Below are positions 16,280-35,473 of a stretch of 64,000 nucleotides of DNA, piece after piece (position 1 is the first letter of the stretch; the number at the start of each line of letters is the position of its first letter). The position numbers were made by a program, and so were the translations under genes. The stretch is from Candidatus Altimarinota bacterium (GTDB lineage Bacteria > Patescibacteriota > Gracilibacteria > BD1-5 > UBA2023), in the NCBI GenBank assembly GCA_013268835.1, contig JABFSX010000009.1, forward strand, positions 62,001 to 126,000. Direction: 5' to 3'. The notes beneath the pieces are model-generated. The model saw only the letters and a list, made by a program, of their open reading frames with translations, had not been told where the DNA came from and did not search any database.

Positions 16280-17632
16280 TTACATTTTTAGTACATATCT
16301 TGAAAGGAGTCATCCAAAGAGTGATGATTTACTATTTGAGATCTTTGTTATTGTTATCGGATTTATTGTACTGAGACTACTATCTGTTTCTATATGTTTC
16401 GTTGTATCAGTTTTTGAGAGGTACATCAGATTCATATCATAGGTAAACTGTATGATCTCACGCATATCGGTATAGAATTGTGTAAATCATACAAGATTCG
16501 TGAGCATATTTTTCTCTGTTCCAGCTTCTAGATATGATCCAGTAACTTGTCTCTTTATATACATCGTATTTCCTTGCATCAGGAATTCATATTGATTGCC
16601 AGTTTTATTCACGAATGATACAATACGATCCATAAACGCTGGAGTGATAATCATGCGACTCGTAACTTGATCTTCACACTTCACATCAAAGAGTTTTTCG
16701 AATTCCATATTTTCGAGTTGAACTCGGTTTTTATAGAGAGACTTTTTACGAAAATGATATATGGCATATCCAATTCATAAGCCAATGGCTATGCTTAAAA
16801 AAAATGTGATAGATGGCGTATCTATAACTATACTTAAAAATATGAAACTGAATACCATACCTATTATTAGTCCTAAAATTGGTCATATGTAGGTTATACT
16901 ATTTCCTCACCCATCAATTTCATCATGCATAATAAAGAGATCACTGCTAAGTGGGATTCGAGCACTTGGAAATACAGCTTTCATAAGATAACAATGATTT
17001 GTTGTGACTCTTCTTCGATTTTTTCCACTTCATCTCATTTCTGAAGTTTCTAACTCAAAGCCATTTACTGAGAATATTTTTCCATCTTTCTCTACTCCAA
17101 AGTGTACAGAATCTTCAACTTTTTCCAGGCTGTCATATGATGAGAGAAAATTTTTACCTCTGAGGAGTTCCAATTCATCAAAAGAGTATTTTTCATCATA
17201 GCTATATTCAAGTTTTGAATAGAGAAGTGGACACATCTTTTGGAGGACTTCACTCTTGAGTGGGATTTCTATTTTTGATGCAAATTTTTTATATAAGAGG
17301 CCTATTCCTGTAGAGTATGAGATAATGGCGGCCCATATTACTGGGGAAAATGAATTATCTCCAGAGCCAATTGTATAAAAAAATCCATTAATAAGTCGCA
17401 TAGGCAGACTCTCACCACTTCCGAAAATAAATGAAAGAAATACCGTTAAGATAGTGCATCATCCATATATGGCATATTTCCATTTTTGACGAATTTTTCG
17501 TTGTTCCTCTATATTTTCGAGTTGTTGTTGGATTGTTGGATCGGTAAAAAGTCAATTGAGTGTCATAATCTCTTCTGGGGCAAGGTTTTTTTTTGCTTTT
17601 TCTGGCAAGGTGCCAAAATCGATATTGAACAT
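16280..17632 (-). CDS. DUF3137-domain membrane protein
   Basis: A 450-residue frame with several TGA codons from ATG 17632 to TAA 16282-16280. Two membrane spans lie near residues 59-100, a further pair near residues 235-275, and the C-terminal half contains F-E-K-L-F-D-V-K-C-E-D-Q, then S-R-M-I-I-T-P-A-F-M-D, a segment characteristic of DUF3137 proteins. Such genes often sit next to lemA, and here lemA ends 27 bp upstream on the same strand. The role is unknown, but the pairing suggests an envelope function. Confidence 0.8.
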
Positions 17633-17659
17633 AGTATTATTGGTTATTTGTGTGAAATA

Positions 17660-18268
17660 TTATGCTGCAAACATTGCTTTTGCGTCCATCTTTTCTACCC
17701 GTGCTGATTCATCAGCCTCAAACATAGTAAGCTCAGGAAGAGTCATCATTTTGGCTACAATATTTGAAGGGAACATTTCTTTACTATTATTGAGGAGCTT
17801 CACTGCTGAGTTATATCCACGACGAGCTCATTGGAGGCGATCTTCGAGCTCACTCCATTGTGTCTGGAGTTCGAGGAAGTTATTACTTGCCTTGAGGTCT
17901 GGATAGTTTTCTGCTATTGCGAAAATTGACTTCATACCTGCTTGGAGCTCATTTTCTTCTGCAAATCGCTCTTTGCTCGCTTTATTTGTATTTGAGAGGA
18001 GCTGAGATCGCATCTCAGAAACCTTGTTGATGAGTCCCGCTTCGTGAGCCATATATTGCTTCACGAGTTCTACAAGATTCGGGATAAGGTTATATCGATT
18101 CTGAAGAACGGTATCAATCGCTGAGAATGCTTCGTTGGCAGTATTCTTCGTATTAATAATCGAGTTATATGTCGAGATAAAATAAATACCGAAAATCACG
18201 AGTAGTCCACCAATTCCAAAGAGGGTATTGGTATATTGTCCTAATAGTCCAAAAGTCTGAGTTTCCAT
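17660..18268 (-). CDS. lemA: LemA-family membrane protein
   Basis: The 202-residue product has one N-terminal span (about residues 16-34) with the region outside, followed by Y-N-S-I-I-N, D-x-V-L-Q-N-R-Y-N-L-I-P-N-L-V near residue 56 and R-L-Q-G-A-R-R-G-Y-N-S-A-V near residue 146; these are conserved LemA features. The Gly in R-L-Q-G is TGA. LemA proteins are small membrane-anchored helical bundles of unknown role. Only one or a few glycines use TGA. A hairpin lies just before the start, and DUF3137 follows. Confidence 0.93.
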
Positions 18269-18285: not shown

Positions 18286-18314
18286 AATATGGTACTATAG
18301 AATAGTACCATATT
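18286..18314 (-). terminator. terminator between the helicase operon and lemA
   Basis: A perfect 12-bp stem (AATATGGTACTA and its complement) with a five-base loop is followed on the minus strand by TTTTTT. It lies 17 bp before the lemA start, so lemA and DUF3137 must be reached by read-through or have a promoter inside this element. Confidence 0.75.
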
Positions 18315-18348: not shown

Positions 18349-18726
18349 TTATAGATTTTTCTCACAATAGTTTGCAAGTGCTTCGAGTATTGCTGGTGGA
18401 TAGTTACATGGAGCATTTCCTGTCAGATGAATTCCGAATTCTCCAATATAAGCTATCATAGCAATTTTGTAATCAGCTTTTGCTTGATTGAGCTTTCTTG
18501 GTCATGTTACTGGGCAGGTGGGTCTTTTTATCTGATTATTTTTTTGTCTTCATTTACCAGTGAGTATGCCTAGAATCAATAATTGATGAATTTTTACGAC
18601 TTCATTTTTTCAGAGTGTTTTGATAGTTCATTCAAAAAAATGAGAAAATTCATGTCTATATTCCTCTGTATCTAACAGCGATCGGAGTTTGGTATATGCA
18701 ATAGTGCTAGGAGTTTGTATTTTCAT
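18349..18726 (-). CDS. hypothetical protein (125 aa), visible only with TGA = Gly
   Basis: The frame runs from ATG 18726-18724 to TAA 18351-18349 with four TGA codons. The product is basic and helical, with a G-K-G-R-Q-K-x-N-N-Q-I-K-R segment near residues 58-70 and two Cys; no membrane span. It is the last gene of the 8-kb helicase/AAA+ cluster, 5 bp after the first paralog, and is followed by a terminator. No family recognised. Confidence 0.6.
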
Positions 18727-18731
18727 ATAAA

Positions 18732-19412
18732 TTATACTTTCACGAGTACTCTCTGTAATTCTTCAAATTGTTCAATTTGTTTATCAAGTCTCGCTCGTTG
18801 AAGTTCTGAAACTTGGTTGAGCTCTGCAGTTCAATGAATATTCTTCTCAACTTCAGATTTTGCAGATTCGAGAGATTGTTGTTGTTCTTTGAAGCAAATG
18901 GAGAGATCGGAACGGAGATCAGTAAGGATAATAATAAGATATTTTGCAATGATCTTACAATAATTTATAAAAAGCTCTTTAGTTTGATATCTTCATACTA
19001 TTTTTAATAGATTTTTCCTTAAGTGAAGAGTTCAGAAGATTTTATGAATTTTATTTGTTTTTATGAGTATATCCTCAATATTATCAATAATAATTTTCTC
19101 TTCATTCAGATGGAATAGCTCATTTAATATTTTTTTAAAAAATCTCCTAATGATATTTCAAATAAAGGTATTTATTTTTCTATACAGGAGAAAACATCAT
19201 ATCCAAACTAAGGGTAGTCATAATATTATGAACATCGAAAAATCATCGATTTTTCAAATATACATGAGTATTGGAAGTATTATATAGCTCGCCATCCATC
19301 CTATAATGAATATAAATCTGTAAGATTCCCTTATATCATAAAGTAATGAATCATTGAATTTTTTTGAGATATTTAATATATCTTGATATGTATTTTTATG
19401 ATTTTTGTTCAT
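18732..19412 (-). CDS. two-TM coiled-coil protein, tandem paralog 1 (226 aa)
   Basis: The frame from ATG 19412-19410 to TAA 18734-18732 needs at least seven TGA codons. Two membrane spans lie near residues 32-80, then a polar helical middle, and a C-terminal block of about 62 residues (from L-T-D-L-R-S-D-L-S to the end) that is almost the same in the next two genes. The block contains S-A-K-S-E-V-E-K-N-I and R-L-D-K-Q-I-E-Q-F-E-E-L-Q, a clear heptad coiled coil. N-terminal parts of the three paralogs are not alike at sequence level but share the topology. Cytoplasmic coiled coil is likely. Confidence 0.75.
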
Positions 19413-19466
19413 ATTTCTTACTTTTTCTCAATTTTATCAGAAACATCATAATCAAGCAAAATTTCT

Positions 19467-20162
19467 CTATACTTTCATGAGTACCCTCTGTAATTCTTCA
19501 AACTGCTCGATTTGTTTATCAAGTCTCGCTCATTGAAGCTCAGAAACTTTATTTAGTTCTGTGGTTCATCTGATATTCTTCTTAACTTCAGACTTGGCGG
19601 ATTCGAGAGTATTTTTTTGTTCAGTGAGACGAAGTTGGAGGTCGGAACGAAGATCAATTAGAATAAGAGTAATATATTCTAATTCTAGACTTTTTATTTC
19701 TAAACTATTTTTCTCATTGAGATTATATCTAAAAATTTTCTCAATCTTTTTAATTTTATCTAAAATTACCGGAATGGTATCTAAGATATCTTTTCAATTC
19801 ATTAGATAGTTATGTATATTCGTTAAATATCTATAGTGATATTTTTTTAGAAATACCTTATTGAATTCAGATATTGGAATTGAAATAAATAATCATATCA
19901 TAACTATTCATATAATACCATCCGGTAAAGGAATCTTTCCAGTTATGGTATATCTAGGTATGGCAAACAAACATGCAATTATTATTACTACGGGCAATAA
20001 AATAATCAGTAATTGTATGTATCAAAAATTCATTGGATCTTTTTTTAAACGAATATTTTCTTTATCAATTTCAAGAAATAGTTCCTTGTTTAAAAGTTGT
20101 ATCTTTTCTTTGTTTTCTAATACTATTATAGGTGAATAGTGTACGATAGGGGAATTGTACAT
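19467..20162 (-). CDS. two-TM coiled-coil protein, tandem paralog 2 (231 aa)
   Basis: From ATG 20162 to TAG 19469-19467, 231 residues with at least five TGA codons. Two spans lie near residues 48-100. The C-terminal 62 residues match those of the flanking paralogs, including L-I-D-L-R-S-D-L and E-L-Q-G-A-R-L-D-K-Q-I-E-Q-F-E-E-L-Q-R-V-L. In the last 180 bp the DNA is close to identical with the other two copies, while the rest has diverged, which points to gene conversion or strong selection on this tail. The gap to paralog 3 is one base. Confidence 0.75.
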
Positions 20163-20163
20163 T

Positions 20164-20856
20164 TTATTTATTTATTAGTAATCTCTGTAATTCTTCAAAT
20201 TGCTCGATTTGTTTATCAAGTCTCGCTCATTGAAGCTCAGAAACTTTATTTAGTTCTGTGGTTCATCTGATATTCTTCTCAACTTCAGACTTGGCGGATT
20301 CAAGGGTTTTTTGTTGTTCTGTAAGGCGAACAGAGAGATCGGAACGAAGATCAGTGAGAATTTCGATAAAATATTTTATTTCAGTTTTTTGTAGGAATAA
20401 ATATTTGGAATCAGCAGTGTTAATATATAGATCTAATATATGTAACTTACTAAATTTTTTATGTATCGATTCAATTCCTGTGAGTATTTCTTCAATATTT
20501 TGTAGTTTTCCACTATTTTTCATCCAAAAAGTATTAAAAATTTCTAATTCTTTTAGTAATGTAATGATTTTAATATCAGTAAAAAATCAAGAAAATAAGT
20601 AGTATAGTACGAAATAGCTAATAAATAAAACTACCACTACCAACATCAAGCTATCAATATTTGATTCTCATATCCATTGGTAGAATCAATTTTCAATAAT
20701 GTTTTTTCCCATAGTATATATAGACATACCAATGAAAAACGCTAATATAGGAAATATGATTATACTCATAGCTACTCAATATAATATTGATTTTCATTGA
20801 TCTTTTGCTTTCCGTATTCTTTGTATGGATGATTTTAGTTGTGTAAATGAATTCAT
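20164..20856 (-). CDS. two-TM coiled-coil protein, tandem paralog 3 (230 aa)
   Basis: The frame runs from ATG 20856 to TAA 20166-20164, two bases after the AAA+ ATPase stop, so translation is probably coupled. Two hydrophobic spans (about residues 27-48 and 74-92) are followed by a helical region and the shared coiled-coil tail ending E-E-L-Q-R-L-L. At least six TGA codons are read as Gly. The tight coupling to the ATPase suggests the three paralogs are its membrane partners or substrates; this is inference from order and spacing. Confidence 0.75.
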
Positions 20857-20858
20857 TT

Positions 20859-22208
20859 TTACTTAATTTTTTCTAGCCAACTCGTATAGATACTCATATC
20901 TACCATCTTAAGGCTTGACGGAGTCTCTAGGATGGTTTTACGAAGAGAATCCATCGTGATTTTATTTCATTGTAGGAGTTTTTCTGTGAGTTTCCCACTC
21001 TCTGCTTCATCGATAAGCTCAAGGAGATTACGACTTGCATCACGAGCTACTTCATCACAGATAGCTTCTATATCAGCTGAGACATAGTCTTTTGTAAGAA
21101 TTGTGAGCTCATCGTAGTCAAGCTTCTCACTTGGGCGTCATTTTTTCTCTATGTACATCTGGAAGAGTGCCTTGCGAGCTATATCATCAGGAGGTCCGAG
21201 ATAGATCTTCTTGTCGAGACGTCCAGAACGAAGAATCGCAGAATCGAGATGATCGGGACGATTGGTGGCAGCTATGACGATCAGATTTGGAGCTGATTCG
21301 AGCCCGTTGAATTCTTGAAGGAATTGAGATACTTCTTCCGCTTTGTTGGCATCTACATTCGATGTACGAGCTGATACGAGTGAGTCAATCTCATCAAGAA
21401 AGAGAATAATTGGTTCATTTTCTGCGGCTTTTTTAGCTCATTCGAAAAAATCTTTTATATTCTTCGTAGTTTGATGGAGATAGGATGATCAGAATTCTCC
21501 CATATTTTTTGAGATAAATCCACATCCAAGTTCTTCAGCAAGTTTCTTCGTTATAAATGTCTTACCAGTTCCTGGAGGCCCATAAAAAAGCATACCAGTT
21601 GGTATAGATATCTTGAATTTTTCATATTCGGCATAGAGTCGCTCAAGGAGTTCAGATTTATTCTTTTCTTGTCATGCTGAATTTAGTTCAGCATCCTCAT
21701 TATTTTTTTTTGATTCTTCAGTATTGGAAGATTCTGGAACAAATTCAGAATGACTTCATTTTTCTTTTCGGAGTTTTTCTACAAGGAACTTGAACTTGAG
21801 CGGCTTGATAAAGCTATCTTTGAGTTCTTCCTTGAGTGAGTCCATTCCAGCAACCGCTTCAAAACCCCATGGTTTTCACTCTACTTGAGTAAAATGTTGT
21901 ACTTCTATGGCAGGTTTTTCTGTTTCATCTTTTGCATTCCCAGTTTTTGGAGGATGAGTTGCTGAATTATTAGTTCAGACTGAAGCATTGTTTCCGATAT
22001 TTTTTGCTTCATCAGTTGCGAATTTTTCATTGAAAGTATTCATCATACTAGAAGCTTTTTCGACTCCTGATTGCATCTCGAGGAGAGACTTTTCCAGAAG
22101 ATCGACAGAATCTCATTTCCAATCTTTGGTAACGGCAGATTTGAATTCTGGGGATGTAGTGACAGCTTGGAAAAAAGCATCGAAGCCAGAATCTTTTGGT
22201 GATGACAT
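20859..22208 (-). CDS. AAA+ ATPase (FtsH/Vps4-like module)
   Basis: A 449-residue frame with about eight TGA codons. The N-terminal 120 residues are polar and helical. Walker A is F-Y-G-P-P-G-T-G-K-T near residues 203-212, Walker B F-L-D-E-I-D near residue 268, and the second region of homology A-A-T-N-R-P-D-H-L-D-S-A-I-L-R-S-G-R-L-D near residues 312-331 with both Arg fingers. This is the classic AAA clade like FtsH, p97 or Vps4, but there is no protease domain and no membrane span. It probably remodels a protein complex; the coupled downstream two-TM paralogs and the upstream helicase are candidate partners. Confidence 0.85.
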
Positions 22209-22218
22209 AGTATGAAAG

Positions 22219-23280
22219 TTAAGAAATTTTTTGTTTGAGAATATTAATAAGGAATTGTTTTTGTTTTTGGTATTTTGTATAGAGTATTTCTGCATCAAAT
22301 AATGTCAATTCAAGTCTTTTGTGTTGAAATACTATTTGTTCATTTTGAAGTTTTTCTATTGATTCCATTCCTCATTTAAGAAGCTCTATATGTATAGAAA
22401 GTAGATATTCCATATATGAAATCTCAAGAAGTCCAGTACGGAATTTTTCCCATCTTGGATCAAGAAACTCTATATTCTCACTTGAGATGAAAGTTTCAGG
22501 GAGATTAAAACTGTTATCTCATGCTTTTTCTAAGGTTATATATCATGAGAGTCATAAGAGATCATCTGATATAATACAATTGTATTTTCCCATAAATCCA
22601 ATAAATAGATATATTTCAGAAATTGTAATGTTTTTAAAATTCAAAAAATGAAATACTCATTTTTGAGTGTGCGTTAATCAAAATTTTTGGATACATATTT
22701 CAAGAAAAATATTGAATTCTTCTGAAAAAGGATCTTCCATACACCATAAAGTATATGTATCTAAAACTTCCTTTTTTGAAGATATGAATTTTTTATTCCC
22801 GAGTGGAATTTTCTTTTCAAAAACAACTATTTCTGTTAGGGAATTGAATACTGAGAAAATATTATTTTCGAATTTCCAGAAAAAAATTGTATCACTTTGA
22901 AGGTTTGTATATATACATTTTTCTCAGTCAAAGTTAGTATATATGAATGCAAAATATGAATCTCCTTTTAAAAAAAATGAGAAAATTTCTCCTTCCTCGA
23001 TAAGAAATAATTTTTCCTGATATATAGAGTTACTATCAATAATTCGAACCCCAACGTATCAAAAAAAATTTGAAGCAAATACTGCAATATGAACATCATG
23101 ATTAAAATCTGTTGTACGAAAATGTGGAAAAAGTTCTTTTTTTCAATAACTATTCGAAATAGTTAACTTGTTTTGATATAAGGCTGTTTCACAAAATCAT
23201 GAAAAAGAAGGAAACGATATCAGGCACGTATCGTTTTGTTGGGGGATAATTGAAGATGAGATAAATGTACTTATATCCAT
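22219..23280 (-). CDS. hypothetical protein (353 aa) between helicase and AAA+ genes
   Basis: The frame from ATG 23280 overlaps the helicase stop by ten bases and ends at TAA 22221-22219, ten bases before the AAA+ start. At least ten codons are TGA. The protein is soluble, rich in Phe, Ile and Asn; the first two thirds look beta-rich and the last about 80 residues form a helical, Gln/Lys-rich tail (E-K-L-Q-N-E-Q-I-V-F-Q-H-K-R-L-E-L). The overlap shows it belongs to the helicase operon. No family recognised. Confidence 0.7.
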
Positions 23281-26258
23281 AGTTTTTCTATTTTTCCATT
23301 CAATAAAGTTCGTTTACTAATATCTTCTTGGGTTGTTGGTCATATACTTCATGAGAGCTGTATGATTTTTCTCTGTTTAAAGTAATTAAAGATACGAGCA
23401 TAGATAGTATAAAAATAATGAATCAAGTTTATGCATAAAAATATACAAATACCAAGTATCCATGCAAATACACAACTCAATCCAATTGTGGGCATTGAAA
23501 GTATATAATTAAATTGCATAACAAAAATCATAACCATAACCACAGTAAGTAGTATGAATATTACTCAGAGTATTTTTGGTGTTTTGAAGAAAAAATTCCG
23601 TTCAGCTAAATACTTAAACCATTTTGCCTTCTCTGGAATACTTGGATATTTTTTTCAGAGAAAATATTGTCTTTTTTCTTCATTACTTGCAGTGATATCT
23701 GGTAATCCAATCTGAATATTATTTGTATTTATTTTTTCTAACATTTCATTTATTTTTCGTATCTTTTGTTCCTTTTTTCTTAAGTGAATATACCAGCTAA
23801 TTACCACTATTCCACTAAGGATAATATAATATATTTTATATGCTCCTAATAAAAGCAGTAAGATAGCCCATAAATAACTTGTGAATATTATTATCAACAT
23901 AAAAACAATAGGGCCTCTTGCTACAGGATTTTGTTTTTCTAGAGTTTTCTTATCATACTTTATGATGTATTTTTCTTCCGTAATTGGACTAAAAAGTGGA
24001 GTAATTATCTCAAGAAATTTTTTATTTATGAGTTGATCTTTATCATTTCCAGTAATTTTTATAGAGCCGCTATCTGTCCATCTTAGAGAATATGTGAAAT
24101 CTGATGGAATGACTTTAAATGGCTTCAAGACTTGGATAGTTGCAAGAATAAGCTCATTGATCCATTGTCTTGTTATTGAATGATATGTTGTCTTTCATAA
24201 CTCAAGGAGATTTATTCATTTCTCTTTTTCTAGAAGAACTGTGACAAGTTCTTGAGTGTCTATAGCATTCGGAATATATATTTCCGAGTATGGATCTTGG
24301 ATTTCTATCGAGAGTGAAAATACTTCTTCATTTTTAAATGAAGAACCAATATTCCAGAGTTCTTTTACCATGCTGCGAAGTGCAGATTTTCGGAGTGTAT
24401 ATGAGTTTATTTTATCCTTTTTTGTGATATACTTTTCCAGTTGTGGATAGATGTGATCAAGTTCTTTGATGATGAGTCCACTATCGTCTACTCAATAAAA
24501 TTGAGAATGTTTTCGTTCTAATCGATTGAAATCACGCATTCATTGAAATCCCTTGCCTATACAAATTATATCATATATATTTGCAACTTTTTCTAGATTA
24601 TTTAGATTCAGACGTATGGCTCGTCCGTGAACTTGATTCACACTCATGTAGGCACTCACTCCCGTGAGATCAATAAGGGTATTTATCTCAGGGCAATCCC
24701 AACCTTCACCGAGTATTCCTCTCGTTCCAATAACTATCTTTGTTTCTCATTTTGCTAGTTTTTCAGTAACAGAAAGTATAGTTTCATTTTCTACAAGTGT
24801 TTTTATATTATTTTCTATTCTCCATATTCCTTGCCCAGAAACAAGATATGGATTGAGATATCCATATTTTTTTATAACCTCATCGAATATATAATGCCCA
24901 TTAATCCAATCTGATTCTACATCGAGAAAATCAGTAATGACTGCTACTCGGAGGGATTCTCCAATATTTTCTATTTCTTTATCTAAAATGGAGTATACTC
25001 ATTCGATTTTGGATTTAGAATAAATAAGTCATTTTTCAATAGGCGTCTCAAATCGATAAAGATTTGTTCATCGCCAAATATAGCCAAGATCAAAAAATAG
25101 TGTTTTTACCTCGTTAAGAATAGTTGTTTTTTTTGTTGTTTTAAAATCATTAGATGCCCATTTTCAGATACTTTTTGCTATATCTTCTAGCGTGAGTTCT
25201 TGCGATGCATTTTTTGTTATATAACCAGACATATCGATACTTTCATCTTTATATCTGTATATGAAACGCATCCATTTTTCGAGAAGATCGAGTGACTTCA
25301 CTTTAAGTCGATCGAAGTTCTCTTCAAGAAAAATATGGAGATTATGAACAATTTCTCATCTATATGAGATGAGAAATTGTTCAAGAAGTTGTTCTTTTTC
25401 TTTGAGAAGGTTATTGAGTTTTTCATCTGGGGATACGATATATACAAGATCAGAATAGGGTGCAAGTCGACCACTTTTCACGATGGCAGGAGTTGGAACA
25501 TAGTAATCTACCGTTCCAAGAAGTTTCACATAACTCTCATCGAGCTCAAAATAGTCCGCATTATCGAATGGAGGAGTGGCAGTGAGTCCTATGATATAGG
25601 GCTGCTCAAGACTGCTCCAAATCTCATAAAGAACGTGAGACCACCAAGAAGTAAGATGATGTGCCTCATCTACAACCATAGTTTTTACTCCTATCTCTCG
25701 AAGATTCTGAATATACGTATGAATATTTCATTTCATAAGTTTTTTCGTATATTCAACATCGCCACTTTCTTTAAGTTTTTTTCGATGTTTTGTGTAGAGA
25801 TCTCTATATTCTTCCAGATTTTCTTGCTTAAGTTCATTCACAAAAAGTAGAAATGATTCTTCTGATGGGAATTCATCTTTCTCTGATTCAAACCAGATAT
25901 TGAGTATCTTCTTCTGAACATCATCATTTTCATCTTCTGTTCCAGAAAGTGATTGATATGTGATAATATTTATTTTTTTTATATCAGAGATGCTTGTTGA
26001 AACAAGCTCTAGGATGCTTTCATTCTCTTCAAGAAAGAGTTTTTCAAGCTTATCCTTCCATTGTTCTTGTAGGGTGAGATTTGGTACGAGAATAAGAGTT
26101 GGCTCATCAATTCGGCATATCATCTCAAGTCCAACGATGGTTTTTCCACTTCCAGGTGGTGCAACAATATGAATCTTTTTTTCTCCATGAACGCGTTCAT
26201 CCTCAAATACGTTAAGAATTTCCTTTTGATATGGATAGAGAATTGAATTAAAACGCAT
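23271..26258 (-). CDS. DEAH-type SF2 helicase fused to a C-terminal membrane domain
   Basis: A single 995-residue frame, open from ATG 26258 to TAA 23273-23271 when TGA is Gly. Helicase motifs in order: Walker A A-P-P-G-S-G-K-T at residues 33-40, D-E-A-H at 197-200, T-A-T at 226-228, and Q-V-H-G-R-A-I-R-L (motif VI) near residue 543. Residues after about 650 have no known helicase domain; hydrophobic segments near residues 776-822 and 893-956 predict about four membrane spans, with charged coiled linkers between. A membrane-tethered SF2 helicase is unusual. The N-terminal part resembles ResIII/DEAH proteins of restriction and defence systems. It heads a cluster with a 353-aa protein, an AAA+ ATPase and three membrane paralogs. 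Confidence 0.85.
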
Positions 26259-26271
26259 AAGTTATAGTGAT

Positions 26272-26817
26272 TTAGTAAGATGTTTTCTTTTTTGGTTCGG
26301 AAAATGCCGAGAAGAATGTCATAATCTGAAAAAAGAATGTCATAATTGGTACTCCCCATATTCACCACAGTGTATCCTCGTATACTCGAACAATGCTATT
26401 AGGATCATAGATTACCTTCACTTCTCATCATATTTTTCTATATGAGCTAGCTATAGGTTGATTATGTCAGGTAGAGCTCCCACCTCATACACTAAATGTT
26501 GATGATTCTCATTTAATAGTTTTGAATCCAACGTATGCTGTGAATTCTGTACAATCATGTTTATGTTTTCAACCACAACGACTATTGTATGCGGTTATAT
26601 TTGTAATATTTCCGATAACATGTTCACCAACTTGAATAAGCTGTATTCTATCGGCTATAAAATACAGAATAACAAAAAATAATATTCATGCAACAATGAG
26701 CCATATGGGTTGTTTTATTTTTAATTTTTTCATGAGATCATCTCGTCTCTCTCAAAGAGAGGCTTGATCGGCTCAAGGATAATCAGTTGGTATATATGGA
26801 AGATTTTGCTCAGACAT
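26272..26817 (-). CDS. membrane protein, DUF3592-like (181 aa)
   Basis: The frame from ATG 26817 to TAA 26274-26272 reads through more than ten TGA codons and is not visible otherwise. A soluble N-terminus is followed by a span near residues 38-56, an extracytoplasmic beta-rich domain with two Cys (near residues 81 and 88), the segment V-K-V-I-Y-D-P-N-S near residue 133 and a second span at residues 148-167. Span-domain-span with Y-D-P-x-N/S resembles DUF3592 proteins. It starts one base after the channel gene stop, so it is translationally linked to it. Confidence 0.6.
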
Positions 26818-26818
26818 A

Positions 26819-27496
26819 TTATTTTTTTTGAGAGTATTTAGATATAATGGCTGCAAGGGTATGCATATATAGAATACCGAAACTTATATAGAGTGATCCG
26901 AAATAAAAGATATATCAAAATTGTAGTTCTAGTATTCATCTCATATTTCAAGCATCACTAAATATAGAAAGGAGGAATACTTCATTTATACATTTATGGA
27001 GATTTTTCCAATCTGCTGAAAAATCTGAAAAGAGATAAAATCATAATACAGAAAAAATATAGTTAAGGACTATATAGAGTACTATAGATGAAAAAATTCA
27101 ACGGAGACTGGTCTTGATTTGAGCTATATACTCCCGTAAAGTATCTGAAACTGAAAAAATGCGTAATGCACGAAAAATACGCAGTATGCGTGCAACAAAT
27201 GCAAATGGTCATACTATCGGTATGAGAGAAATTGCAACAATCGTAAAATCAAATACATTTGAAAATTCAGAAAAGAATTGTTTATAATTTGGGGAAAATG
27301 CAATTACTCGAATGAGTATTTCTACTATGAATACTCATTGAGATATCGATAAGATTGCATCTATTAGATCACCATAGGTATCTTGTACTCATTGGTATGT
27401 TGCCATTCATAAGAGTCCAGCATTTACCAATATTAAAAAAAGAATACAACTTTGTAAAAATTCGTTTTCCGCAATACTTCGTAGGTATTTAATCAT
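26819..27496 (-). CDS. voltage-sensor ion-channel-like protein (225 aa)
   Basis: A 225-residue frame from ATG 27496 to TAA 26821-26819 with about ten TGA codons. Six membrane segments are predicted; the fourth reads V-A-R-I-L-R-I-F-R-A-L-R-I-F, with Arg at every third position, which is the S4 voltage-sensor signature of Ion_trans channels. S5 and S6 flank a short pore region, but no canonical K+ or Na+ selectivity filter is obvious (the loop reads N-E-V-F-L-L-S-I-F-S-D). It could be a small cation channel or a sensor. Co-transcribed with the DUF3592-like gene. Confidence 0.75.
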
Positions 27497-27593: not shown

Positions 27594-28004
27594 TTATAAT
27601 ATTTTATTTATAATTCGTATTAGGATAATTTTAAACACTATGAAAATCAGCATCATTCCTATAAATATAGCATGAACATAATCAGGAACTGAAAATGGTA
27701 TAAAATATAAAAATAGTCGATACAATATCCCTATACTGATAACAAAAGCGACATTTGCAATAAAAATATCTTTTGTTGATTTTTTTGCCTCTTCAGTGAG
27801 CAATTTACTTGCAAAATTAAGTGATTTCCAGATACAATATAATCCAGGAATGATTGTAAGAGGAATTGTGATTGTTGATATCCAGATTGGAGGATTTCAT
27901 CAGAGTAGGTATACCCATAGGAAACTTACAGCTACTCAGAGTACACAGACTCAGAGTCATCAAAAAAATCAAAAAAGAAATAGGTACCAAGAAATAAGAC
28001 CCAT
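27594..28004 (-). CDS. four-span membrane protein (136 aa)
   Basis: From ATG 28004-28002 to TAA 27596-27594; the in-frame TAG upstream fixes the earliest start. The first span is glycine-rich and mostly TGA-coded (G-F-F-G-G-L-G-V). Four hydrophobic segments with short loops and a basic C-terminus are visible. The gene begins five bases after the 403-aa gene stop, so they form one operon. No family recognised. Confidence 0.6.
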
Positions 28005-28009
28005 AGATT

Positions 28010-29221
28010 TTATATTAGTTTTTCCCTATATCATTCTAACATTATTGTTACTCGTTCAAAACTTTCTATTTGCATTTCAAGTCGATCTTTTTGAAGAATG
28101 AGGGGTTTTTGAAGTGATGGATTAGAGGTTTCAGAAATCTGAACTTCAAGAGAAGATATTGTATTTTTAAGTGTATCATTATTCTTATTTAGAAGCAAAA
28201 GTATTGATTCAATTGGTTCAAGAATTTGTTTTTTTACCCAACTTCCATATTTGTTAAAATTAAAAATATCTTTATAGGTTGATGACTCGAGAGTTTTTCG
28301 GAGTTCTATAGTTTTATTGGTTGCATTTCCAGCAAGTTTTCCAATAACTTCAAATGACTCACTGAGCCGCCCTGAGAGATTCTCACTCCATTCATTTCTT
28401 CAAGCATCAGTAAGAAGGTCTATGGTTTTTTCTTGATTGGATTTGAGTCTGTCTGAGGCGATCTGAATTTCAGAGAATAGAGTCTGAATCTTATGCTCAG
28501 TATTATTCATGGCAATAAGATATTGGTGTGCTAACCAAGAAAAAATACGACCAAAAAGCGCAATAAAAAATATTCCAATAAAATATATAACTCCCATCAT
28601 TGCTGCATAGAGGAAACCAGCAACAAGTATGACAAGTACGATACCTCAGGAATCACGAGATCTTCATACACTCTGGAGTATTTTTCATCAACCGGATGCA
28701 ATTTCTTTGAGATTATCGAAGAGTTCGGTTTTTGCTATTGCTTTTTTCTCAGCGAGTTTGGATTCCCCAAGAAATGGTTCGTCAAATATCTTTTCAAACT
28801 TTTTAAAAATTTCAGAATTTCATTTTTCTGTAATTCTTCATCATGATACATAGTGATGATCTGTGATAACTACATTGGCGCCACGAGTGTAGAGGTATGA
28901 TCTGTAGAAGAATTGAATTGAGAGAATGATACCTATTATCAGATAAAAGGCACCAAGAACTGTGAGGATCGCAAGAATCGTCCCAATTGGACCAGCAGCC
29001 AGACCGATGAAACCAGCAATAGCAGTGATGATTGCGAGCGGAAAACTCGCCCACCTGACTATCTGGAGGTAGTCTCTTTCGAGGGTCATCCGGAGTTCAT
29101 CAGAAGAGATCCACTCGTAGAGATGGAATCCTCTTTCGTCAACTTGTTTTTCTACATATTCAGGGGTATCAATATGATCTTGGATTTCTATTTCTGGAGA
29201 GGGAAGTGTACGAGTGAGCAT
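28010..29221 (-). CDS. membrane protein with long coiled coil (403 aa)
   Basis: The frame runs from ATG 29221 to TAA 28012-28010 through about a dozen TGA codons. A charged N-terminal domain is followed by two spans (about residues 58-105), a soluble middle, a second hydrophobic pair (about residues 195-225) and a C-terminal coiled coil of about 150 residues ending in a Leu/Glu-rich helix. The topology repeats that of the three tandem paralogs and of the 342-aa gene: membrane pair plus cytoplasmic coiled coil. Function unknown. Confidence 0.65.
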
Positions 29222-29274: not shown

Positions 29275-29808
29275 TTAGGACTCAATTTCAATATTTTCTT
29301 TAGAATCTAGAGTGTCAAATATTGATTTTTCTTCTAGTTGTACTTTCATATTCCGAATCTTAGAAAGTGTAGACTCTATTTCTAATATTAACATATTGAT
29401 TCTGATGTATTGTTGTTCCATATTTTTTTCAAGCGAAGTATCACTATTTTTCTTTTCCGTACCTGATGCTATAATCTGTAATTCTGTAAGTCTTTGAATC
29501 AATTGTTCCTCGATATGCTGGACTATATTCAATATATCTCTATTGAGTTGTAGAGTGTAGAATACAGCATCAAATATATCTCATCTTTTTATATATTTTT
29601 CCATTTTTTCGATTTTTACAATAAGCCTCATCATCTGAGTATAATTATAAAGAATTCTTTCTAGGAATCATCCCATATTATAGCCAAATTCATTTTCTTT
29701 TATGAGAATATTAAATTCTCGTAATTCTATGAAAAAATGAAGTCTTTTACGATGAAGTTGTCCTCGTAAAAGTCGGAAATAAAAAGATATAAAGTATTCT
29801 ATAATCAT
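29275..29808 (-). CDS. soluble coiled-coil protein (177 aa)
   Basis: From ATG 29808-29806 to TAA 29277-29275; only two TGA codons. The protein is helical and strongly charged with long heptad-like stretches (near residues 100-165), an Arg/His-rich N-terminal region and no signal peptide. It starts four bases after the 342-aa gene stop and is the middle gene of a three-gene set of membrane and coiled-coil proteins. No family recognised. Confidence 0.6.
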
Positions 29809-29812
29809 ATAT

Positions 29813-30841
29813 CTATAGTATTCCCTTGATGAGAGAATCAAATTGTTCTATATTTTCTGTGATTTTTATTATTCATTTTTCTGTATCTTCTTTTCATTTT
29901 TCTGTTTCTGTTTGGGCAGATCGTATCATCCCGCTTTGGATATCTATGAGTTGAAGTTTTTTCATTTCAATAAACTTTTTTATTTCAATAAGAGTATTTA
30001 CCGTATCAAGTCGTAGAGAGGTAAAATACCTTTCGCTATTAAATAAATCTCCATTTCCGATTTTTTGTTTCATTTGCCCCATTTTTTCTATACATTTGAG
30101 TAGTTCGCTGTAGTTTTTTGATGCAATGCGATATCACTCGTCAAATGCTGTGTAGTTGATATTTTCTCTATTTTCTATTTGTATCTGGATACTTGAATCT
30201 TCTATTTCAATGATGAGTTTTTGAGCCTTTTTTCCTATATTTCAGAATACATAGAGGGGATGAAAATGTTCGATATATTGACGAATTCCATATATTATTC
30301 CATATACTCCACTGACAGTAACTATGATAATACCAAAGATAGTAACAAGAAATAAAGCATCTAATTTTAATAAATACTCAAGTAGTCATATAAACACTGA
30401 AATAAATATAAATACTATAATTTTTGTAAAAAGATCATCAAATCAACTCGCTCAAAGATATTTTTTATTTTGTGATTTTATTGCTTTTTCAATATATTTC
30501 ATTTTTACTGAAAAAGTTTTTTTGGTTTGTATAGAGTATATACCTGTATTAGTACAAAAGAGTTTTCATATAAAAATGTAGAAAAATATATTTCTAAGAA
30601 AAAATCCTATTGGAATTATAAGGACAATAAGAAATGTAATATATATTTGTTGTATATTGAATATAAGAATGAGTCCCACTCATAAGATAATCCCTATTAA
30701 AACTGGCCATATAAAGTTTAGTAGTATCTGTGTTAGTTCTTTGACTCAAAATAATTCCTTCATATAAAATCCATTTTTTTGGAATTCTATCTGTTCTTTT
30801 CTCGTGAGTATTGTATCTGTTGTAAATACAGAATCTTCCAT
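29813..30841 (-). CDS. membrane protein with C-terminal coiled coil (342 aa)
   Basis: The frame from ATG 30841 to TAG 29815-29813 contains more than ten TGA codons. Four membrane spans are predicted (pairs near residues 41-90 and 145-190), followed by about 130 residues of soluble helix with heptad repeats. A promoter region precedes it, since the terminator of telA lies just upstream at 30977-31006. It heads the operon that continues through the coiled-coil protein, the 403-aa membrane protein, the 136-aa membrane protein and probably the channel gene. Confidence 0.65.
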
Positions 30842-31028: not shown

Positions 31029-32144
31029 CTATTTATTGAGTTCTTCTGCAAATTCTTCTTGTTCCTTGGCTCCAAGTATTTTAATAGTCTTGAGTTGAGC
31101 ACTGGCATCATCAAATGATTTTTTCTCTGCGTCAGCCTCGATCTTGATCTGAGCACGATATGCCTCGATGGTATCGAAGTGATTCTTGAGTTTTGTAACA
31201 TTTTCTACGAATACTGATGCTGAAAGTACAGGTTTTGATGAGAGCTCTTCGCTTCTTCGTGATGATTCAATAGCCTTATCTGTGAGCTCTGATGACATCT
31301 TATCGATTGTAGATCACATAACATCGATCGCCTTCATACTGGCATCAAGTGCTTTTTGAGAACTGGTTTCGATGAGTGCTGTCGAGAGAAGAGTCTTAAA
31401 GATTGGGCGAGATGAACTCATAGCAAGTGAAAGCTTTGAAGCGCTATCAAGACGCATAAGAAGTCGCTTGCGAGCCATATCAAGATTCCCAATAAGAACG
31501 ACAAGATTGGATTGAAAATATTCTACATGACGGATAAACATATCATACTTGAGTTTTTCATTCTCATCAGTTGTCTCGAGTCCTTTTGCTTTGAATTCTT
31601 CTATCTTTGTTCCAAGGAATTCCTTGTAAGCTACAACCTTTCCAAGATTTGCATCGATTCCATCAAGGAACTTCTTTTGCATATCTACACTCGTATTGAG
31701 TGAGTTATATGCTTGATCAAATCCTGAAAATATCATCTGAATTTTTCCTTCGAGGGATTTTACATTGAATGCTGCCTCATCCCACTTCGCATCGAGAGAT
31801 TTCATAAGTCCACCAAGAACAGGGATGGATTTTGCAATCTTCATCACGGTTCCATCATTATTAATAATCTCTTTGTATACTGACTGAACATTGTTATTCA
31901 TCTCTGTGAGCGTATCAGAGACATTCATAATCGGATCAGAATCGATGATGGTGGCTGTTTCTGATATGATTGAGTCGATTGGGGCAGTGATTTTTTCTCC
32001 GAGAGAGCGAAAGTCTTTTGCTTCTGCAAATGTTTTCTCAACCTCTGCGGATTCAATTGCTGAAAGAGGACGAGCCTTGATATCTGCAATGGCCTGAGTT
32101 GCCTGATCTTTTGGATCCTGAGTCTGTACTTGTGCGTCTGTCAT
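31029..32144 (-). CDS. telA: TelA/KlaA-family toxic anion resistance protein
   Basis: A 371-residue helical protein from ATG 32144 to TAG 31031-31029. The pattern with an S-I-P-V-L-G-G-L-M segment near residue 103, followed by long helices with K-F-L-D-G-I-D-A-N-L and L-M-R-L-D-S-A-S-K-L-S, agrees with the TelA family, first linked with tellurite resistance and often found with phage/bacteriocin or membrane-stress genes. Only one codon is TGA. It is the third gene of an operon with the TPM-domain protein and a 149-aa anchored protein, and is closed by a terminator. Confidence 0.85.
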
Positions 32145-32668: not shown

Positions 32669-33550
32669 TTAGTCACCATATCAACCACCATTTGATGATC
32701 CGCCACCTCAACCAAAGTCAGAACTTGAAGAGGAATCTGATGAAGACCAATCAGAAGATGAACTATTTCAATTTCAATAATAATTTACCTCAGTATTTCG
32801 AGATTGTATTTGTGTATTCCATACTATGCAAGTAGAAGAAATATTGAATTGACAACGAATTGATTGAAATCCAAAGTAGATAAAAAATGATCATAATCAA
32901 AATATGATGATGCTCGCAATCATTCTTGTTCACCTCGCCTCATTCATATTGTTTTTTAAAAAATATAAACCTCAATAGAAACTTCATAAACCAAGTATGA
33001 ATGAAAATATTCAAAAAACAATATTTGATATAGCTCACCCTAAGGATAAAGTTAAACCTAAAATTATTACTCAAATCATCAATATGATACCTTGCATTTT
33101 ATTTTTACTTACATTTTTGCTGATTTTATTAAAAGATTCTGAATTATTTATGATTTCTCCCCAATTTTGAATCATTTTCTCATATTTTCCTTCATTCAGA
33201 AGGGGTCGAAGCTGATTTTCTATGATTTCTCGACATATCATCTCGGTATATTTGAGTTCGAGTCATTTTCCGACAATGATTCTGAGTTTTTTCTCCTCAG
33301 TTGCTACAATTAGAAGGATTCCATTATTGAGATTTTTCTGGCCGATTCCATTTTCATTAAAAATCTTGAGTCAGATATCAAGGAGTTCATTTCATTCTCG
33401 ATGGGAAATAAAAACAGTTACTACTTGTTCTGTAGTTGTGTTCTCATGATCTATGAATATCTGACTCATGGCTTCTATCTGTTCCACAGTGAAAATATCA
33501 GAAAAATCGTTGATATATTTTGTAAGTTTTGGAAGATTGAGAGGATTCAT
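32669..33550 (-). CDS. TPM-domain (YgcG-like) membrane protein
   Basis: A 293-residue frame with more than a dozen TGA codons. The N-terminal part has the TPM (TLP18.3/Psb32/MOLO-1) layout: Q-V-V-T-V-F-I near residue 42, N-N-G-I-L-L-I-V-A-T-E-E-K-K-L-R-I-I-V-G-K-G-L-E near residue 76, and a helix ending R-P-L-L-N-E-G-K-Y. Three to four spans follow, then a Ser/Gly-rich tail (S-S-S-S-D-F-G-G-G-G-G-S-S-N-G-G-G). No signal peptide precedes the domain, so orientation is the reverse of classic YgcG. First gene of the TPM-149aa-telA operon. Confidence 0.85.
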
Positions 33551-33588
33551 AGATATTGGTTATAAAACCTAATATAACGTAGTTATAA

Positions 33589-33620
33589 TAAAAAAGCAAA
33601 AATATGTTTTTCGCTTTTTT
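33589..33620 (-). terminator. terminator after the histidine kinase gene
   Basis: AAAAAGCAAAAA and its near-complement (one bulged C) form a stem with a TATG loop and flanking T run, 13 bp after the kinase stop codon on the minus strand. Confidence 0.7.
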
Positions 33621-33632
33621 ATTTGATATTTC

Positions 33633-34838
33633 TTAAAACCCTATTTTTACTATGAATTTCCTTTCTTTTGTTTCGATATTCATCTTCCATCCAGATATTT
33701 CTACTATTTTCTCTACAAGAGCAAGTCAGAGTCAATACCCGGTGGAGCTTCGTGATATATCTCATTGATAGAAAACTTTTGTGAGGTTTTTTTGTTCGAT
33801 TTCACTAAAATCATGATCAATAGTATTTGATATAGTTATGGTATTTTTTGCGAGTTCTATCTTGATTTCTCATTCTGATTTATACTTGATAGCATTCTCT
33901 ATGAGATTGCAGAGAATACGATTATAGAGCTCTTCATTGGCCTGTTTGTAAATGTGTTTTTTCTCATGAGTATATTGTATTGGAGTCTCATTTTTATATT
34001 TTTCTATTATTTCTTCAGTTTTTTTTGTTATATTGAGTTCTTCTTTTTCATTTGCTTCTCCTGGTTTAGCAAGGAAAAGAAGACTCTCGATAATCCGTTC
34101 CATTCCACTGATTTCCTCATCGGTAGAATTGATAAATCTTGGTTCTGGCTTGATCCTGAGGAGCTCAAGATTCGATCGCATAACTGATAGAGGAGTACGA
34201 AGCTCATGAGCTACATTGTGGCTATAGGCTTCGAGTTCACGAGATTGCTCTCGAATTGGTTCAATAGTAATCCGAGCAAGATATCTTGCGAGGAGATAGA
34301 TAACAATAAGCCCAATGAGAGATCAAAAGAGCGCAATAACAATGAGAGTAAAGTGAAAAGATCTCAGTGATGTGAGGTCTCGAAAAAAGAATACTACGGT
34401 TTCATCAATATTTTTTCGTGTAATGAGATAGGCGTGTTCATTGATTTCGAGTGTACTATTTTCTCGTTCTTGAATTGAAAAAAGTTGCTCAGTAATTTTG
34501 CTATCAATGATGAAAAAATCATTTTTTATAACATTTCTTGCAGTATCAAAAACAATAATATCTCTTGGTCATCGGTGTTTTTCATCATTTTTAGGTCATC
34601 GAAATAATGGTATATTTTCATTTTTTATGACTTCCCGTATTCCAGGATTCATATCGATCATGTTGCTCTCAGTTCGGAGTTCTCTATTCATCTCACGATA
34701 TTCGTAGATATAACTCGTTCCTATTATGGATACGAGTATGCTTATAAAAATAAGAAAAGAGGCAATGCTGATCTTGAATGCCAATTTCTTTTCATCGTCT
34801 TGAATATAACGATCTATGAGATGAGATATCATGTTCAT
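33633..34838 (-). CDS. sensor histidine kinase
   Basis: The 401-residue frame overlaps the response regulator gene by 25 bases. Two spans (about residues 20-42 and 160-185) enclose a sensor domain of about 115 residues. The H box S-H-N-V-A-H-E-L-R-T-P-L has the phospho-acceptor His at residue 211; the N box reads R-I-L-C-N-L-I-E-N-A-I-K-Y and the G2 box G-Y-G-L-G-L-A-L-V-E, whose first two glycines after Tyr and Leu are both TGA. A canonical D-x-G-x-G (G1) box is not apparent where expected. Partner of the regulator at 34814-35473; likely senses envelope state. Confidence 0.9.
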
Positions 34839-35473
34839 TTGAGGGTAGTGATTATAGATTTTCAGAGTTTTTTTCGAATAGTAGAGATATGTGCCTCCAG
34901 TGTTACAGAGTCCATAGCGAGTTCTGCTTCTCGCATTCACCATACTGCCTCCAGTATTTCCATTTTACTCTTTGGGTAGCCGAGATTGCGAGCAAGATAT
35001 TCGATGATTCCATATTCTTTATGAGAGAGGTCTATTATTATTTCTCATTTTTTGAATATTTTTCGTCCGATATCGATTGAATATTCTCAGAATGAAATGA
35101 TATTTTCTATAGATTTTTCTCGTCTTCTACTCAGTGCGATAACTCGAGCTTCGAGTTCTTTCATCTCAAATGGTTTCACTACGTAGTCGTCAGCTCCGAG
35201 ATCAAACATAGTTATCTTATCATCGAGAAGGGAATTCGAAGTGAGTACGATTACTGGAGTTTGGTTGCCTGATTTGCGTATTCGATCAATAAAGGTCTTA
35301 CCATCCATAATTGGCATATTCATATCAAGAATGATGATATCATAATGTGCGTGAAGCATTTTAAGTGCTTCTTCTCCATGAATAGCTCCTTCTGCTATAT
35401 ATCACTTGATAGAGAAGAATTCTATGAGATTATTTCTGATTTTTGGATGATCTTCGATGATAAGGAGTTTCAT
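34814..35473 (-). CDS. OmpR-family response regulator
   Basis: A 219-residue regulator. The receiver domain has the acidic pair E7-D8, phospho-acceptor D50 (I-I-L-D-M-N-M-P) and Lys in D-Y-V-V-K-P-F. The C-terminal winged helix carries L-S-H-K-E-Y-G-I-I-E-Y-L-A-R-N and ends T-L-K-G-T-G-Y-L-I-S, where both glycines are TGA; with the standard code the end of this domain is lost. It precedes and overlaps the histidine kinase gene. The upstream direct-repeat motif suggests it regulates its own operon. Confidence 0.93.

Follow-up and report, generated by a model that had tools for sequence, protein, structure and literature searches.

What does a helicase that carries its own membrane segments do in a row with an AAA+ ATPase and several membrane proteins, and is this row a single conserved operon? 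The question is raised by seven co-directional genes in the window, the 64,000-nucleotide stretch of Gracilibacteria DNA that was analysed as a whole. The first-pass annotation had described them as an undescribed operon with overlaps or short gaps, closed by a terminator and largely hidden under the standard code. Coordinates and order of all seven reading frames were reproduced on the minus strand with table 25 (TGA=Gly), with intergenic distances of -10, +10, +2, +1, +54 and +5 bp from HEL to u125 in transcription order (Table 1). Reading with table 11 leaves next to none of the stretch visible, and the predicted terminator is present as a hairpin between u125 and LemA. The assignment of TGA to glycine is supported by HEL itself, because its TGA codons 504 and 589 align to glycine in 10 of 10 homologues, five of them from relatives translated with table 11. 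The 5' side of the run is open: u194 ends 13 bp upstream of HEL and is preceded on the same strand by the ion channel gene, u136, CC403, u188, CC342, u371 and a TPM-domain gene at 33550. Given long ORFs that are conserved at 42-90% identity in relatives, the gene structure is much beyond chance.

Table 1. Predicted features of the helicase/AAA+ locus, in window coordinates.
Feature	Position	Strand	Description
LemA + DUF3137 genes	16280..18268	-	3' of terminator; adjoin cluster in several family members
Intrinsic terminator	18286..18314	-	13-bp stem followed by TTTTT
u125	18349..18726	-	125 aa
CC3	18732..19412	-	Two-TM protein, shared C-terminal tail
CC2	19467..20162	-	Two-TM protein, shared C-terminal tail
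CC1	20164..20856	-	Two-TM protein, shared C-terminal tail
AAA+ ATPase	20859..22208	-	449 aa from ATG; single AAA domain
u353	22219..23280	-	HEL partner, 353 aa; start codon within last HEL codons
HEL	23271..26258	-	SF2 helicase, XPB/ResIII-like, 995 aa
u194	26272..26817	-	DUF3592-like membrane protein, directly 5' of HEL
Voltage-gated-type ion channel	26819..27496	-	PF00520
u136	27594..28004	-	4-TM protein; at CC403-AAA junction in G066 too
CC403	28010..29221	-	4-TM core protein, same tail C-terminally; adjoins AAA in most relatives
u188 + CC342	29275..30841	-	TM/coiled-coil cluster genes; relatives in G066, G212, G214
u371	31029..32144	-	All-helical core protein; 62-90% identical in 38/77 genomes

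By motif content and profile match, HEL is a member of the SF2 helicases (XPB/ResIII-like) with intact catalytic motifs. Motif I (PPGSGKT, residues 34-40), DEAHH (197-201), TATPP (226-230), LGEGWD (516-521) and QVHGRAIR (542-549) are all present; the Walker A motif, DEAH box, motif III and arginine-rich motif VI are invariant across 10 homologues, and the ResIII profile scores 86 bits against a cut-off of 22.5. XPB/RAD25 and ResIII-type proteins (NF045503, PF04851) are the best matches for the N-terminal half and share with HEL the SF2 motifs I, Ia, II (DEAH), III, V and VI, but HEL differs from them by large inserts between the RecA halves and by a C-terminal domain with TM segments. No nuclease or other further domain was recognised in the protein. 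An identification as the XPB repair helicase was rejected (56.1 against the curated cut-off of 610 of NF045503, over residues 7-115 only). Since ResIII, XPB/RAD25 and UvrB give the best profile matches, the substrate is presumably DNA rather than RNA. An AlphaFold model of HEL from 3 sequences reached a pLDDT of 48, too poor for fold search or docking.

About four TM segments are predicted in HEL, near residues 793, 812, 905 and 934, and TM segments are present in four of the five intact Gracilibacteria HELs and in 5/5 distant homologues. Of the four other intact homologues in Gracilibacteria, three have the helicase and membrane parts in a single gene, as do all five distant ones in Patescibacteria; the parts are not split in all relatives. 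The fusion is not special to this locus, however, as the same family with a TM hairpin occurs in other bacteria. A Paenibacillus protein (WP_152404286.1) and proteins of gut bacteria annotated as 'DEAD/DEAH box helicase family protein' have a HEL-like length (920-940 aa), a TM hairpin and a C-terminal block (NPRYL..., VPxxxGRxK, TRTxEGRxxLL) homologous to that of HEL, which is 28.5% identical to the Paenibacillus-type helicase over residues 8-652. In these proteins the hairpin precedes the C-terminal domain, whereas in HEL it follows or interrupts that domain, and no u353, u371, CC403 or AAA gene lies nearby. Judged by this homology, HEL is a member of the Paenibacillus-type TM-anchored helicases with a different TM position, and part of a wider unnamed SF2 family of other Patescibacteria, Paenibacillus and gut bacteria, in which a TM hairpin is usual. 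The C-terminus of HEL is hypervariable (18-31% identity) and its partner fast-evolving (23-45%), compared with 47-68% for the helicase core and 57-79% for AAA. The C-terminal KIEKLWI is invariant in 5/5 copies, and genome G211 shows synonymous changes there.

The AAA+ gene, for which an upstream TTG start would give a 484-aa version, is by its profile an AAA ATPase (PF00004, 128 bits against a cut-off of 21.2) with a complete domain. Walker A (GPPGTGKT), Walker B (LFLDEID), SRH and arginine fingers follow a lineage-specific N-terminal domain, and the catalytic motifs are invariant in 13 homologues. The protein resembles the CDC48/proteasome-ATPase/CdvC class in its one complete AAA domain with these motifs, but has its own N-terminal domain and stays far below the curated cut-offs (CDC48 169/803, CdvC 133/650). 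A CdvC/Vps4-ESCRT assignment was rejected at that score; the cluster has no ESCRT-III/PspA family match. Models of IetA from the anti-phage system IetAS are matched at E 9.5e-38, a score as for any AAA+; this assignment was likewise discarded (118.9 against a cut-off of 510), with no subtilase IetS and no peptidase family in the neighbour genes.

Together with u371, CC403 and the two-span membrane paralogs CC1-3, the AAA+ gene makes up a core. Of the 77 genomes of the order, 29 have AAA+, 38 have u371 and 27 have both (Fisher p=7e-10, the genomes being phylogenetically non-independent). The u371/AAA core is found in 40/77 genomes and mostly without helicase, HEL being absent from 71/77; no convincing occurrence of the core was found outside the order. 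CC403 and CC1-3 end in a homologous tail (last 51 aa; hhalign 89.7%, E 1.9e-6), and among 9,443 ORFs strong tail matches (E<1e-9) were restricted to these families. Recent gene conversion was rejected as the main cause of the near-identical tails: genomes of other genera also keep this tail, and synonymous differences at 11-19 codons already separate the three copies in the window. The core protein u371 is possibly a very distant relative of TelA (PF05816) of the Ter system, which is likewise long and all-helical. Only three of 25 u371 members match PF05816, weakly and under the cut-off (best E 3e-4), and neither the window u371 nor any protein of its genome does so at 1e-3. An identification as TelA was rejected (hhalign 0.3% with 3 TelA sequences), and no TerB, TerC or TerD gene was recognised in the cluster. 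The AlphaFold model of u371 from 5 sequences (pLDDT 57) was too poor for fold search or docking; PDB searches with u371, u353, CC403 and CC1-3 gave nothing meaningful.

HEL and an overlapping gene of the u353 family form a cassette that was found in six of the 77 genomes, with five HELs intact. The partner follows HEL in 5/5 intact loci and overlaps it in four. In the window genome and in G212 the cassette is inserted at the junction of CC403 and AAA, which are separated by 1-21 bp in seven genomes without a cassette there; in two further genomes HEL adjoins AAA or u371. HEL thus lies within the cluster or beside u371/AAA in four of six genomes, in three different arrangements. Chance adjacency of four of six HELs within 20 kb was estimated at ~1e-6, a value not counted as proof because the events are non-independent. 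In line with the first-pass annotation, helicase and AAA+ co-occur: AAA is present in all five intact-HEL genomes (p=0.006, for few and phylogenetically non-independent genomes), and in G247 the HEL is frameshifted and both partner and AAA are absent. Gene order is conserved only for the pairs HEL-u353 and CC403-AAA(-CC), and u125 has no homologue among the loci of relatives examined. The stretch therefore consists of two superimposed layers, core and helicase cassette, and not of one conserved seven-gene operon. The other half of the original claim stood, in that no described system was matched: Pfam, NCBIfam, PADLOC and PHROGs give generic AAA+ and SF2 helicase matches only, and PADLOC finds at the locus no specific system with its required partners.

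A possible connection of the two layers is offered by u353, whose C-terminal ~50 aa resemble the tail of CC403 and CC1-3. In its best local alignments to CC1-3 (E 0.006) and to CC403 (E 0.004) the matched parts are the C-termini, with an identical register in both (control u371, E 0.15); taken alone, the match is weak. We consider it the best explanation, with a probability of roughly 45%, that the HEL-u353 cassette was inserted into a Gracilibacteria-specific membrane apparatus of AAA+ ring ATPase, helical scaffold u371 and the membrane proteins CC403 and CC1-3, and that HEL acts on DNA at the membrane. The heads of CC403 and CC1-3 differ; their common tails would serve as handles that let the soluble AAA+ ring bind these membrane proteins and remodel them. 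With its diverged version of the tail, u353 would dock HEL onto the complex of AAA+ and tail proteins. HEL, held at the inner membrane face by its C-terminal TM segments, would be an ATP-driven double-strand DNA translocase acting on DNA at or reaching the membrane. Counting against this explanation are the occurrence of HEL in only 6/77 genomes, the HEL of G248, which has no TM segment and lies on a contig other than that of the core, and the existence of the same helicase family without the core in other bacteria.

The last two of these points feed the strongest rival, namely that HEL, as an independent representative of a widespread membrane-anchored helicase family, only happens to occupy a variable position of the AAA+/CC cluster, with no functional link. 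The family does without the core in other Patescibacteria classes, Paenibacillus and gut bacteria, and its distant members adjoin unrelated genes (rhomboid, Dus, NUDIX) or nothing in common. The CC403-AAA junction moreover accepts other insertions (u136, u194-like, 270-aa and 180-aa genes); a relative of u194 occupies it in G218, and the ion channel was not found at the junction of relatives. Still, the presence of AAA with every intact HEL, the decay of HEL where AAA is absent, the three different linked arrangements and the tail-like end of the overlapping partner all argue against mere coincidence, and we regard this rival as rather unlikely.

Less probable again is anti-phage defence or plasmid exclusion, in which HEL would recognise the DNA of invaders at the membrane, with a response from the AAA+/membrane part and the adjoining ion channel. 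The patchy distribution of HEL fits such a role, as does the contrast of variable HEL C-terminus and partner with conserved helicase core and AAA; the broken HEL of G247 abuts a defence-type reverse transcriptase and that of G248 a patatin-like phospholipase. PADLOC, however, calls no system, the genes around the locus in the window serve the envelope, metabolism and signalling, with no defence gene among them, and the distant HEL relatives sit in ordinary chromosomal settings; no evidence was found for an enrichment in defence islands. HEL divergence runs parallel to AAA divergence (r=0.81), a pattern closer to prolonged vertical inheritance than to fast horizontal spread. Viral contigs searched with HEL, the AAA alignment and the gut HEL yielded no relative of the system. 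Two 'Bacteriophage sp.' records matching HEL were rejected as phage, having no recognisable phage-like gene and resembling bacterial scaffolds; one carries ABC-transporter, CAAX-protease and NUDIX genes. A role in competence, with HEL as a ComFA-like helicase drawing DNA in, is very improbable: HEL does combine membrane location with a DNA-type helicase and Patescibacteria take up DNA via a ComEC system (PMC10633639), but the Saccharibacteria system is listed with ComEC, DprA and ComFC, naming no helicase or ComFA (PMC10633639), no com gene was seen beside HEL, and the distribution of HEL (6/77) fails to follow that of ComEC (74/77 genomes, 50/50 good ones).

Insertion of a helicase cassette into the AAA+ apparatus, our preferred reading, can be extended more speculatively to a modular membrane machine, in which one AAA+ ring serves membrane proteins via a C-terminal tail code and exchangeable modules enter at the CC403-AAA junction, one of them a DNA translocase recruited by the tail-bearing adaptor u353; we think this doubtful in its full extent. 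By the comparisons above, the cluster that pairs an AAA+ motor with common-tail membrane proteins is conserved and undescribed. If the proposal is true, obligately host-dependent bacteria would possess a lineage-specific AAA+ membrane apparatus that was largely missed by standard-code gene calling, its substrates would be predictable from sequence by their recognisable tail, and the apparatus would be genetically linked to a widespread, uncharacterised family of membrane-anchored DNA helicases.

The seven ORFs from the 995-aa helicase (HEL) to the 125-aa u125, which the first-pass annotation had described as an operon closed by a terminator and almost invisible with the standard code, are all present where that annotation placed them when translated with table 25 and disappear when read with table 11. 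Intergenic distances are -10, +10, +2, +1, +54 and +5 bp, assuming that the AAA+ gene starts at the ATG at 22208, and the predicted terminator was located. HEL codons 504 and 589, both TGA, correspond to glycine in 10/10 aligned relatives, five of them standard-code, and this homology supports TGA as glycine. The cluster begins upstream of HEL: u194 stops 13 bp short of it, and further upstream on the same strand lie an ion channel gene, u136, CC403 (a core protein with four TM segments), u188, CC342, u371, a small gene and a TPM-domain gene. The 219-aa gene preceding the cluster may encode a regulator of the histidine kinase.

Features of the window and of compared loci
Feature	Location	Strand	Remark
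Seven genes, HEL to u125	18349-26258	minus	
Hairpin, 13 bp, with T run	18314-18286		between last gene and LemA
u371	31029-32144	minus	
TPM-domain protein, histidine kinase, 219-aa gene	32669-35473	minus	precede the cluster
Reverse transcriptase	L097:11340-12488 (G247)		directly at end of broken HEL, partner's expected place
Patatin-like phospholipase	L096:7410-8213 (G248)		two genes upstream of unlinked HEL; matches PADLOC effector models
145-aa helical-looking protein	L178:5540-5977 (Tritonibacter)		precedes TM-less helicase relative, 4-bp overlap; no Pfam match

Gene order in relatives reveals a conserved unit that differs from the seven genes initially proposed. Of the 77 genomes of the order, 38 carry u371 and 29, which all belong to two families, encode a close AAA+ relative (E below 1e-100); 27 have both (Fisher p = 7e-10). 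The usual order is u371 - CC403 - AAA, followed in the window's own family by one to three CC paralogs and often LemA and DUF3137. u371 is 62-90% conserved, unusually high for a protein without family match; it occurs in half of the order, and the other half lacks it without weak intermediates. TelA, described as forming sub-membrane structures in jumbo-phage and Ter-system literature (PMC7824862), is a possible analogy; the family test did not place u371 among TelA proteins. In seven genomes 1-21 bp separate CC403 from AAA, and across relatives their junction takes varied insertions: u136 (G066), a u194 relative (G218), a 270-aa gene (G219), a 180-aa gene (several f2 genomes) or HEL with its partner u353 (G212 and the window). 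In the open-access literature searched we found no description of the operon.

HEL has a complete SF2 motif set, is nearest to ResIII and XPB/RAD25 enzymes and carries about four TM segments close to its C-terminus. The AAA+ protein combines an N-terminal domain of its own with a single complete AAA domain, whose Walker A/B, SRH and arginine fingers are invariant across 13 homologues. Each of the paralogs CC1-3 has two TM segments, and their last 55-60 residues are nearly identical. In profile comparison the last 51 residues of CC403 align with the last 51 of CC1-3 (89.7%, E = 1.9e-6). Among 9,443 ORFs from all fetched loci, strong matches to this tail are confined to the CC403 and CC1-3 families; the 180-aa gene that lies in G051 at the CC403-AAA junction matches weakly (3e-4) and a site close to u371 in G212 marginally (0.035). 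Family searches gave no match for u353 or u125. The u353 family C-terminus aligns to the CC1-3 and CC403 tails in the same register (E = 0.006 and 0.004); for u371 the alignment fell at an unrelated position, with E 0.15. The u353 result is suggestive, not proof, of a diverged tail in u353.

These architectures and the CC403/CC1-3 tail homology, together with the HEL-partner pairing and co-occurrence described below, are read directly from the sequences. Our preferred reading, at slightly less than even odds (about 0.45), is that HEL is held at the membrane, where it would translocate DNA, and that u353 would dock it onto an apparatus of AAA+ and tail proteins. DNA as substrate, the docking and the cellular purpose are what we infer.

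HEL is present in 6/77 genomes, always with u371 and/or AAA. Besides CC403-HEL-u353-AAA-CC in G212, we found AAA-HEL-partner (G186), u371 then HEL (G211), HEL and core on different contigs (G248) and a HEL broken by frameshift (G247). The null reading, that HEL is a helicase unconnected with the cluster and merely sits at a site prone to insertions, is unlikely but by no means negligible. The partner lies 3' of HEL in 5/5 intact loci, in four with its start codon within the last HEL codons, and AAA is present in all five genomes (p = 0.006 versus 29/77). In G247 the partner is lost, an unrelated gene occupies the place beside CC403, and the genome searched gave no AAA match. All five intact copies end in KIEKLWI, whose codons differ synonymously in G211, showing that it is the peptide that is under selection. 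The HEL core has diverged in step with the AAA (r = 0.81). Far faster change is seen in the C-terminal part of HEL (18-31% identity) and in the partner (23-45%), u353 sharing ≈24-25% identity with the L133 and L096 partners, which match each other at E = 5e-19. The G211 assembly (loci L065, L095; 2.4 Mb, 6% contamination) has an AAA gene without TGA codons and codon usage unlike that of relatives, and four TGA in the matched part of its helicase; a code or composition anomaly or a mixed bin is possible.

A defence role is possible in view of the fast-evolving parts, the reverse transcriptase adjoining HEL in G247 (best matches defence-associated models, RT_II-A E 1e-66) and the patatin near HEL in G248, but no defence system was matched and the suggested enrichment in defence islands found no counterpart at the window locus. 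Competence is disfavoured because ComEC occurs in 74/77 genomes.

The proposed membrane-held translocase belongs to a wider family. Homologues with 24-34% identity in other Patescibacteria (G401, G456, G459, G047, G139) all have TM segments, those in Paenibacillus and two gut scaffolds carry a TM hairpin, and those of Rhodobacterales are TM-less. The short gut scaffolds MT836806.1 (L176) and MT838455.1 (L177) were deposited as Bacteriophage sp., but both labels look mistaken: an amino-acid ABC transporter, an Rce1-like protease and NUDIX, all ordinary genes of bacteria, are found on at least L176. Rhodovulum has a 121-aa gene at the position of the Tritonibacter 145-aa gene. In bacteria other than Gracilibacteria the helicase genes lie in ordinary surroundings that bear no relation to each other. 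A C-terminal block (NPRYL, VPxxxGRxK, TRTxEGRxxLL) is common to the family; in the relatives outside Gracilibacteria the TM hairpin precedes it; in Gracilibacteria HEL the TM segments come after it or split it, and the G248 HEL has none. Predicted membrane attachment of these helicases is thus recurrent, not fixed in position and not peculiar to the window operon.
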